This document shows, in pieces, positions 199-48,725 of a stretch of DNA of 64,000 nucleotides. Numbering within the stretch: position 1 is the first letter of the stretch; every line of letters starts with the position of its first letter. The DNA is from an uncultured Sphingomonadaceae bacterium (GTDB lineage Bacteria; Pseudomonadota; Alphaproteobacteria; Sphingomonadales; Sphingomonadaceae): the NCBI GenBank assembly GCA_947501695.1, contig CANMWO010000001.1:310001-374000 (forward strand), given 5' to 3'. The translations under genes were made by a program, and so were the position numbers. The notes under the pieces are model-generated. The model was not told the DNA's origin, did no database searches, and saw only the letters and a program-made list of their open reading frames with translations.

Positions 199-1974
199 TC
201 AGCTTTGATTTCGGGCCAAGGTATTCAGCTTGCGAAATTCCTGACGCCAGAAATCGCCACCATTTCCTAAAAGCCTCTCAATCTTCTGAAAGTCATAGTC
301 ACCAAGATATTTGTCTCCGCGCAGTTTCTGGCCAAAGGCGGCAACTGCGACCGCAAAGGCCATATCTCCGCTAGGCGCCGTTGCGTTGCGCAAATCATTT
401 GCATCAATCTGTCTATCGATGAGACGCGATTTTGTGCCGCCAGGCAGTTTATAGCGTAATTTGATTTGTGCCATTTCGCCCTTGAAATCTGGTTGTGACG
501 GAGCGACGCGATTGGCCGGATAGCGGCGTTCGGGTAGCCAGCCAGAAGATTTAGCGGGCATGATCTCATATAATGCTGTTACTTGGTGGCCCGCGCCAAT
601 ATCGCCAGCATCAATTTTATCATTGTCGAAATCTTCTTCGGCCAACAACCGATTTTCGTAACCGATAAGGCGATATTCCTTCACATGAGCGGGATTAAAT
701 TCGATTTGGATTTTAACGTCCTTGGCGATGGTGAATAAAGTCGAGCTCAATTCTTCTCCGAGTACTTTCTGGGCTTCCATCGCGCTGTCAATATAGGCGT
801 AATTGCCATTACCGACATTGGCTATGCCTTCCATAAGCTCATCCCGGATATTGCCGGTGCCATAGCCGAGCATGGTCAAATTGACCCCCAATTCACGTTC
901 CTTCGCAACGATTTTTTTCAATTGATCGGTATTGGACGTACCCACATTAAAGTCGCCATCCGTGGCCATGATGATGCGATTGATACCGCCTTTCAGGAAA
1001 TTCTGACGTGCGGTGGAATAGGCGAGTTTCAGCGCGTCTCCACCGGCGGTTGAACCACTGGCATGGAGGCAATCGATCGCTTCTTTGACATGGCCCTTGT
1101 TGGAAGTGGGGGCCAGCAGCAGGCCAACTGTTCCAGAGTAAACGACGATCGAAACGCGATCATCGCTACGCAGCTCATTGGACAGCGCGGTCAGGGTGGA
1201 CTTTACCAGCGGCAATTTGTCTTTGCTGCCCATCGAGCCGGAAACATCGACAAGAAACACCAGGTTGGCGCGCGGCCGCTCGCTGCTATCCACATCATAG
1301 CCACGTAGGCCGATACGAAGCAGCCGGCTGGAATCGTTCCAAGGCGTTGTCGAGAAGTCTGTGGAAACACTGAACGGTGCTTCCCGACTTATAGGTGCCG
1401 GATAGTCATAGCGGAAATAGTTGACCATCTCTTCAGTCCGTACAGCGGCTTCCGGTGGCAATTTGCCGTCGTTCAAAAAGCGGCGGACGTTGGAATAGCT
1501 ACCGGTGTCGACGTCCACGGCAAAAGTGGAAACCGGATTTTCGGCGACTCGCTTGATGCTCGCGACGTCCTTGCCGGCATATTGTTCGCGATCCTGTGGC
1601 TGTGGACGCGGATAAGGATAAGGGCCGGGTCGTGTTATACGACTCTGACGAGCCAGAGAGCCGCCCACGGCCGACTTGCGGACGGGAGAGGCTTTGGACA
1701 CAGGAGGCGGGGGAGGCGGAAGTGCGTTGGAAACGGGAGCATTTTTTACTTGGCCAGCGATTCTATTTCTTGAGCCTGTTACTATGACCTGCTCACGATC
1801 ATAACGTGTAAAAAGACCGCAATTCACTGGATGCGGAGGTGATATCCGCAGTAAGTCTGGTCTTTTCCCCTGTCGCGATTGCGCATCCATCGATGCAGCA
1901 CCCGGCGTACCGATCAAGCTGATCGCTGCAAACCCGCACAAGATTTTAGAAATATTAGAAAAACGCCGCATCAC
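199..1974 (-). CDS. YfbK-like von Willebrand factor A domain exported protein
   Basis: 591 aa ORF; vWA MIDAS-like DVSGSMGS; vWA-containing family features (ENPVSTFAVDVDTGSYSNVRRFL); N-terminal signal-like segment. Confidence 0.85.
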   Translation of the reverse strand: MMRRFSNISKILCGFAAISLIGTPGAASMDAQSRQGKRPDLLRISPPHPVNCGLFTRYDREQVIVTGSRNRIAGQVKNAPVSNALPPPPPPVSKASPVRKSAVGGSLARQSRITRPGPYPYPRPQPQDREQYAGKDVASIKRVAENPVSTFAVDVDTGSYSNVRRFLNDGKLPPEAAVRTEEMVNYFRYDYPAPISREAPFSVSTDFSTTPWNDSSRLLRIGLRGYDVDSSERPRANLVFLVDVSGSMGSKDKLPLVKSTLTALSNELRSDDRVSIVVYSGTVGLLLAPTSNKGHVKEAIDCLHASGSTAGGDALKLAYSTARQNFLKGGINRIIMATDGDFNVGTSNTDQLKKIVAKERELGVNLTMLGYGTGNIRDELMEGIANVGNGNYAYIDSAMEAQKVLGEELSSTLFTIAKDVKIQIEFNPAHVKEYRLIGYENRLLAEEDFDNDKIDAGDIGAGHQVTALYEIMPAKSSGWLPERRYPANRVAPSQPDFKGEMAQIKLRYKLPGGTKSRLIDRQIDANDLRNATAPSGDMAFAVAVAAFGQKLRGDKYLGDYDFQKIERLLGNGGDFWRQEFRKLNTLARNQS

Positions 1975-47672: not shown

Positions 47673-47720
47673 GACAGCAACCAGTTGCAAAACGTGCAAC
47701 TAATGAATCTCCGTTTTCAA

Positions 47721-47748
47721 TTGAAACTTAACGGTTTGGCGACCATTT
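47721..47748 (+). promoter_or_regulatory. candidate RpoH-like promoter
   Basis: TTGAA-N15-GACCATTT upstream of a 24-codon ORF and C-rich hairpins. Confidence 0.35.
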
Positions 47749-47813
47749 CCTGACTATCAGTTAGACAGGAAAAGTGATGTTTGATCGGCGTTTTTGATAA
47801 CAGGAGAAAATCC

Positions 47814-47888
47814 ATGAAAACGCTTTTCAATATAGTAGCCTCCCTGACCGTTAGCAGCATCATCTTGATCTCTACCGTTCAGGTTTAA
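47814..47888 (+). CDS. candidate small peptide (24 aa, hydrophobic)
   Basis: MKTLFNIVASLTVSSIILISTVQV; CAGGAG Shine-Dalgarno-like sequence 7-8 nt upstream; below ORF-track size cut-off. Confidence 0.5.
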   Translation: MKTLFNIVASLTVSSIILISTVQV

Positions 47889-47903
47889 TACTTAATAGTC
47901 TTT

Positions 47904-47998
47904 CAGTCTCGGTTGCCGCTCCTCCTCCCGATAGGCACCGGGACTGTCGTGACGGTCCGGCCCTTTCAAAATATCCCCCCCGATTAGAAAGGCCGGAC
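47904..47998 (+). ncRNA. candidate anti-SD-loop small RNA (alpha-r14 / CcsR 'cuckoo'-like)
   Basis: Hairpin 1 CAGTCTCGGTTGCC/GGCACCGGGACTG with loop GCTCCTCCTCCCGATA; hairpin 2 GTCCGGCCCTTTC/GAAAGGCCGGAC with loop AAAATATCCCCCCCGATTA. Confidence 0.5.
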
Positions 47999-48102
47999 CA
48001 ATCACCGCTTTGGCGGTCGAGAAATTCTCCGACGTTGAGAAAAAATCAGCTAAAAACAATCACAGGGCAATCTTGTAGGACGGTCGTTTCGATTATCTAG
48101 CC

Positions 48103-48157
48103 TTGTCCACAGTCCAGCAACTGTTTCTCCACAAGAAAGATCCGTATCTGTGGATAA
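48103..48157. promoter_or_regulatory. cluster of three DnaA-box-like 9-mers
   Basis: TTGTCCACA (48103), TTCTCCACA (48125), TGTGGATAA (48149, reverse of consensus TTATCCACA). Confidence 0.45.
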
Positions 48158-48552
48158 GTCGCCCTTCGACGTTTGGAGCGACTCGCAAACTCATGTCATA
48201 TACAAGTCATCGGAAGGAAATAGGCCAACCCGACGACCAGTCAGCAATGACCCGTTGGAGCGAAAAAGGACCGGAAGATAGTCGAAACGACCATATTGTT
48301 TTTCGCAAGAAAAATAGCATGATTTTTCGATTGATGATTGGAAAAAACCCGAGAAGCAAAGGCGCAAGTTGGAGCGGATCAGATGGACAACAATCATCGG
48401 GTGACTGGACCAATATCAGGTTTAAACCGAAACAACATTGCGCAAGCGATGATGCGGAAAACCAAAAACCATAACGATATTGGCCCGGAAACCGGACGCC
48501 GGAACAGCGGACGCTGAAATCGCAAGAGGACAGCATCCCAGATCAGGCGCAG

Positions 48553-48600
48553 TGGGAGCCGAAACCCAAACTCGTTTGGGGATCGGCTCCCATTTTTTTT
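48553..48600 (+). terminator. strong Rho-independent terminator with no assigned gene
   Basis: TGGGAGCCGA-AA-CCCAAAC-TC-GTTTGGG-GA-TCGGCTCCCA-T8. Confidence 0.85.
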
Positions 48601-48725
48601 GCATTCAAGTGCCAGTCTTTCTGGTGGATGAAAACGCCCAGAAGCTCTCCCAACCGATAATCTGACAAAGACGTTTGTGCCCTGCGCGGGCAGCGGCACA
48701 GAGCCTTGTTTGGAGTGTGCAGCCA

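Follow-up and report, generated by a model that had tools for sequence, protein, structure and literature searches.

The window, a 64,000-nucleotide stretch of DNA from an uncultured Sphingomonadaceae bacterium, contains at 47673-48010 a compact locus comprised of a promoter, a micro-ORF and a structured RNA of two hairpins with C-rich loops. From a stress-type promoter that is probably LysR-controlled, the locus probably yields both a peptide and a trans-acting anti-Shine-Dalgarno RNA that acts on mRNAs, of which those of TonB-dependent receptors are the likeliest. Comparison of related genomes establishes the RNA structure, its loops, the coding ORF and the conservation of promoter and operator; transcription, dependence on RpoH and LysR, processing of the transcript, pairing in trans and the identity of the targets are predictions. 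A first-pass annotation, made from the sequence alone, had described a 24-codon ORF, a promoter-like sequence and a pair of long hairpins whose loops are C-rich, all of which were found. Its overall interpretation was sound in placing an anti-Shine-Dalgarno RNA, here seen to covary, behind a small ORF and a sigma-32-like promoter; the descent from the alpha-r14/cuckoo RNAs that it proposed did not gain support.

Conservation and copy number of the locus

The two-hairpin RNA locus was recovered by blastn from 31 of the 33 genomes of the same genus (most likely Parasphingorhabdus), the window's own included, and the relatives' copies are 71-96% identical to the window. The two genomes that lack it are drafts, with completeness of 80% and 67%. 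Synteny is fixed in the same-genus genomes, the gene order 5' of the locus (acyl-CoA dehydrogenase, short-chain dehydrogenase, a lipoprotein-like gene and, mostly, a DUF4197 gene) being constant genus-wide as far as the compared stretches reach. The RNA is single-copy, as judged by one match in the genome to model R1, which is specific to the two-hairpin RNA, so that diverged copies could escape this count.

Outside the genus, blastn gave no convincing DNA match to the locus, and a covariance model run with strict filters on 251 genomes of the family returned just two weak matches beyond the genus (L045 and L046). At L045, in a genome of another Sphingomonadaceae genus (G191), a tandem array of three hairpins whose loops are poly-C lies downstream of an apparent tatC gene (1452-1587, minus strand); this array differs from that of the window, is on the opposite strand to the weak match, and scores 38.3 bits (E 5.6e-6) against the Rfam model ar14, below gathering. 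At L046, in a further genus (G036), hairpins with C-rich loops lie downstream of a peroxiredoxin-like gene (1505-1590) and score 25.8 bits with model R1, a match that may well be due to chance.

Structure and covariation of the two-hairpin RNA

Both hairpins are on the plus strand. Hairpin 1 (47904-47946) presents the loop GCUCCUCCUCCCGAUA (47918-47933), which contains CCUCCUCCC (47921-47929), and hairpin 2 (47954-47999) presents seven consecutive C residues (47975-47981). The same two hairpins were returned by RNAalifold from an alignment of 31 sequences, in which 10 of the 24 pairs are changed on both sides, compared with 2.8 in shuffles. Double-change cells number 24, against 4.6 in shuffles (0 of 500 equal), and 97.7% of cells are paired, against 26-56% when the structure is slid by 1-3 columns. 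Six of the 12 pairs of hairpin 1 are double-changed, with 96.8% of its cells paired; the inner stem of hairpin 2 is 98.6% paired, with four double-changed pairs. The two hairpins had been claimed on the understanding that compensatory changes would be found, and the claim survived this test.

Hairpin 2 is enclosed by an outer helix, GUGA/UCAC, in which 47949-47952 pair with 48002-48005 of the plus strand (whole element, 47949-48005); this helix had been overlooked in the earlier annotation. Across species it takes nine different pairings, its sequence being wholly replaced yet its pairing kept: GUGA/UCAC in the window, GUCC/GGAC in twelve species, and UCCG/CGGA, ACCG/CGGU, AUCC/GGAU, UGCGA/UCGCA, GGUGA/UCGCC, UUUCGA/UCGAAA or a short CCG/CGG elsewhere. 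In a permutation of linkers and tails, none of 2000 combinations paired as well as the native partners, and the minimum-free-energy folds of the window and five relatives gave the outer helix unprompted.

A 111-nt stretch with both hairpins has a folding energy of -48.7 kcal/mol (z = -6.5; none of 200 shuffles equals it), and a 122-nt stretch around them gives z = -5.6. By strand, the window's copy of the hairpins has z = -6.5 on the plus strand and -3.8 on the minus strand. Many of the conserved pairs are G-U, which become A-C on the opposite strand, and the structured strand is therefore the plus strand.

Conservation of the C-rich loops

Loop 1 carries CCUCCUCCC in 23 of the 31 sequences and CUCCUCCC in 27. 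Loop 2 carries CCUCCC in 21 of 31, mostly within CCCCUCCC, and is CUCCUCCC in L027 and L029. The UCCC part of loop 2 has been lost in eight sequences, the window among them, and only the window and closely related sequences show a plain run of five to seven C residues without it. As most relatives carry CCCCUCCC or CUCCUCCC, the poly-C loop 2 is, by this comparison, a derived, lineage-specific form of an anti-Shine-Dalgarno loop, perhaps arising from slippage in the C tract. The poly-C second loop reported by the first-pass annotation is thus real in the window, but is not the general state of the RNA. The loops stay C-rich throughout the alignment while the stems vary, and the expectation of conserved C-rich loops, also set in advance, held.

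The hairpins could instead be a purely cis-acting 3' UTR of the micro-ORF mRNA, serving as a terminator, a stabiliser or a site for an RNA-binding protein, with no role in trans. They lie directly 3' of the stop codon, as such an element would, and in several relatives (L007, L008 and L010) hairpin 2 and its outer helix are followed by a terminator-like U tract. However, a terminator could do without a CCUCCUCCC loop, many stem positions are less conserved than loop 1, and two neighbouring hairpins with long open loops are atypical of a terminator. The cis-acting explanation is therefore considered unlikely.

Candidate targets of the loops

Loop 1 is complementary to GGGAGGAGG. Genome-wide scans for targets and hairpins were made by pattern only, and GGGAGGA-N3-10-ATG gave 29 genomic matches, 17 of which precede an ORF of 100 codons or more. 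Of these 17 genes, whose ribosome-binding site is a perfect GGGAGGA, five encode TonB-dependent receptors; the five coincide in position with receptors among the 44 found in the genome by a Plug family search, and their sites form duplexes with loop 1 of -14.5 to -19.4 kcal/mol. The control 7-mer AGGAGGA gave one receptor among 11 genes. The over-representation of receptors (Fisher p ~1.5e-6, assuming 3300-3500 genes) was obtained in one genome, with a gene number that is assumed and a single 7-mer that had been picked to match the loop, and receptor genes may merely possess strong ribosome-binding sites; as evidence for targets, the enrichment is a lead, not a proof. It agrees with the behavior of the Caulobacter RNA SisA, in which an anti-Shine-Dalgarno 10-mer represses TonB-dependent receptors (PMC12559287).

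SisA is itself sequestered by the G/A-rich loop of CrfA (PMC12559287), and the C-rich loops described here might likewise pair with another G-rich RNA, as a sponge or the target of one, instead of with mRNAs. The chances of this are slim: no G-rich partner RNA was identified, and numerous GGGAGGA sites stand before start codons.

The micro-ORF and its leader

The hairpins are preceded by a 24-codon ORF on the plus strand (47814-47888), as had been noted previously, which encodes the hydrophobic peptide MKTLFNIVASLTVSSIILISTVQV. None of the 31 species departs from the length of 24 codons, and pN/pS is 0.31 in frame but 1.04 and 2.03 in the two alternative frames. An accidental ORF is ruled out by these pN/pS values, and the ORF is, on this measure, under purifying selection. 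The peptide has a single basic residue after the start, followed by a hydrophobic stretch that would suffice for one membrane helix. No Pfam match and no significant NCBIfam match was obtained, and a profile search gave no convincing match beyond the genus; the ORF is encoded in 21 records, labelled Parasphingorhabdus, Sphingorhabdus, at family or order level, and in one case Sphingopyxis. The original remark that the product is not obviously a DUF1127 protein agrees with its length, its hydrophobicity and the lack of a Pfam match.

A small hydrophobic peptide with a weak NCBIfam match (E = 0.085) might suggest a type I toxin-antitoxin-like locus, the peptide being a toxin controlled by the hairpins or by an antisense RNA, but this is very unlikely, as the score of 13.3 bits is far below the cut-off of 60, the locus is single-copy with fixed synteny and no antisense promoter identified, and the structure is sense-oriented, with many G-U pairs that exist on that strand only.

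Further upstream on the same strand, a six-codon ORF (MFDRRF*, 47777-47797) lies in the leader, where conservation is among the highest at the locus. The start of this ORF is kept in most species; its end is variable and in seven of the species continues into the 24-codon ORF, so this upstream frame may be a leader sequence instead of a coding frame.

A sigma-32-like promoter and a probable LysR operator

The promoter-like sequence, TTGAAA ... GACCATTT, lies at 47721-47748 of the plus strand. As a bare pattern, TTGAA-N15-GACCATTT is found at chance level in the window (one occurrence, 0.5 expected) and was rejected as evidence by itself; the case for the promoter therefore rests on its conservation. 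The spacer from TTG to CCAT is 19 nt in 29 of the 31 relatives, with TTGAAA and GACCAT[TC]T identically spaced, and L029 is an ortholog that lacks the -10 element. The conserved TTGAAA...GACCAT[TC]T sequence resembles sigma-32 (RpoH) promoters, and the groES promoter of the same genome, TTGACG (CCTTGACG)...CCCATAT, is of a related form. The -35 element is overlapped by a palindrome, TTTCAATTGAAA (47715-47726), that is nearly invariant in the alignment.

Upstream of the promoter lies a dyad, GTTGC-N7-GCAAC (47684-47700), which is a probable LysR-type operator centered ~63 nt before the presumed transcription start. TTGC-N7-GCAA is found at this position in 30 of 31 orthologs, and its distance to the TTG is 21 nt in all 30 that could be measured. 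Only three palindromes of the GTTGC-N7-GCAAC type occur in the genome (one for the reversed control pattern), and one of them belongs to the promoter, with two TTGCA-type sites, of a LysR gene that is GcvA-like (L090, G000:C1:231721-232596). That gene is found in 21 of 21 same-genus genomes searched, and in each of the 20 orthologs whose upstream sequence is complete, the promoter has TTGC-N7-GCAA at the corresponding place. LysR proteins recognize T-N11-A dyads around -65 and are frequently autoregulatory. As the dyad is common to the promoter of the LysR gene and its center at ~-63 fits these habits, we infer that the GcvA-like LysR protein controls the two-hairpin operon. It would be unusual for a LysR operator to accompany a promoter of the sigma-32-like type, and this counts against the explanation preferred here.

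Relationship to known anti-Shine-Dalgarno RNAs

Precedents for such a locus are provided by the alpha-r14 RNA NfeR1 (PMC10746234, PMC7143759) and by the CcsR RNAs of Rhodobacter, which are produced with CcaF1 under RpoHI/HII (PMC10253847, PMC8625941). Members of the alpha-r14/cuckoo group with two hairpins are known (PMC3927594, PMC4504443). The two-hairpin form described here resembles RS0680a of R. sphaeroides, for which two stem loops with the anti-Shine-Dalgarno motif are described (PMC3927594). Rfam searches at gathering and permissive thresholds gave no fitting family for the two-hairpin RNA. The alpha-r14 covariance-model search proposed in the first-pass annotation (ar14, RF02344) returned no match in the window even at E<=10, and at gathering (58.8 bits) it gave no match in 18 relatives, the best scoring 19.4 bits (L027); the gathering score of ar15 (RF02345, 40 bits) was likewise not reached (best 20.6 bits, L027).

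With the alpha-r14/cuckoo RNAs (NfeR1, SmelA075, SmelA099) the RNA shares adjacent long hairpins, a CCUCCUCCC anti-Shine-Dalgarno loop and variable stems. The group has two to four adjacent hairpins, and here there are two, which covary. The group also has CCUCCUCCC in every loop, whereas loop 2 here is CCCCCCC, or CCCCUCCC in most relatives; it is typically, though not strictly, multi-copy, whereas this RNA is single-copy; and the outer helix around hairpin 2 is a further difference. The promoter of NfeR1 is described as of the sigma-70 type, which the promoter-like sequence here does not resemble.

A parallel in layout is the CcsR1-4/CcaF1 (CIN1) locus of R. sphaeroides, in which an RpoH-type promoter is followed by a small-protein gene and then by anti-Shine-Dalgarno hairpins on the same strand; this order and the promoter-like sequence appear to be conserved here. 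CIN1 differs in having four CcsR units instead of one, and in encoding a 71-residue DUF1127 RNA-binding protein instead of a 24-residue hydrophobic peptide with no DUF1127. The locus described here has, in addition, a LysR-type operator, and lacks a U-tract terminator in the window's species. The alpha-r8 (SisA-D, MmgR) and alpha-r15 (AbcR) RNAs share a short C/U-rich anti-Shine-Dalgarno stretch but differ in structure.

In Brucella, the LysR regulator VtlR controls AbcR2 and DUF1127 proteins (PMC12595884), a system that likewise joins a LysR regulator, an anti-Shine-Dalgarno RNA and small proteins. The VtlR motif, CAATGCAGCCATGCA (PMC12595884), differs from the TTGC-N7-GCAA dyad, and the regulator here is GcvA-like; CAATGCAGCCATGCA was considered as the upstream element and rejected, the conserved dyad being GTTGC-N7-GCAAC.

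The proposal of a divergent alpha-r14/cuckoo relative is thus upheld as regards the anti-Shine-Dalgarno loops and the CcsR/CIN1 layout, and not as regards descent. The RNA has not been filed as a cuckoo member because the ar14 threshold is unreached, the motif is missing from loop 2, DUF1127 is absent from the peptide and the RNA is single-copy. It is probably cuckoo-like in its mode of action.

A second candidate structured RNA downstream

A larger candidate structured RNA of ~410 nt lies directly downstream of the two-hairpin RNA on the plus strand (48196-48605). It aligns in 13 species with a mean column identity of 84%, and its predicted structure comprises 18 helices and 92 pairs, 96.5% of cells being paired; 29 pairs are double-changed, compared with 14.6 in shuffles and 5-9 in slid structures. 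GCAA tetraloops cap some of its hairpins, and it ends in an intrinsic terminator that is conserved, with a clade-specific stem. No Rfam match was found for it. In three species ~700 bases lie between the two RNAs, and the 410-nt RNA is therefore taken as an independent unit. Three DnaA-box-like sequences, TTGTCCACA, TTCTCCACA and TGTGGATAA (48103-48157), stand 5' of the block with their spacing kept genus-wide, and may belong to an origin of replication or to a promoter element. In another genus (G033), an 827-base stretch (L063 1490-2290, minus strand) has similar boxes at one end and, at the other, the same GATCAGGCGCAG with a terminator as the 410-nt RNA; it is a probable distant homolog of that RNA, diverged and longer, and recognizable at both ends.

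Proposed mechanism and implications

In the proposed mechanism, a stress-type promoter, probably also under the GcvA-like LysR regulator, would drive a single RNA that encodes the 24-residue hydrophobic peptide and carries the two-hairpin module at its end. The module, either freed by processing or active as the 3' part of the transcript, would function as a trans-acting small RNA, the C-rich loops of which anneal to Shine-Dalgarno sequences rich in G (GGGAGGA or a longer match) and so block the translation of several mRNAs. TonB-dependent receptor genes would be the likeliest target group. Besides the unusual pairing of operator and promoter and the limits of the target enrichment, points that count against this mechanism are that hairpin 2 has no U tract 3' of it in the window's own species, that eight sequences have lost the UCCC part of loop 2 and that the -10 element is missing in L029.

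More tentatively, the pairing of a stress promoter and tiny protein with a pair of anti-Shine-Dalgarno hairpins might have arisen or been rebuilt in Parasphingorhabdus, with an unrelated, LysR-controlled membrane peptide replacing the DUF1127 protein and serving as a functional partner of the RNA. If so, one transcript would supply a peptide for the membrane together with an RNA that broadly represses the synthesis of receptors.

If the mechanism is correct, a small protein joined to anti-Shine-Dalgarno hairpins would be a recurrent design of the Alphaproteobacteria that is not tied to DUF1127, and comparison of such loci could test the role of the protein partner. It would also provide the Sphingomonadaceae, which depend on many TonB-dependent receptors, with a stress-linked RNA switch for receptor synthesis.
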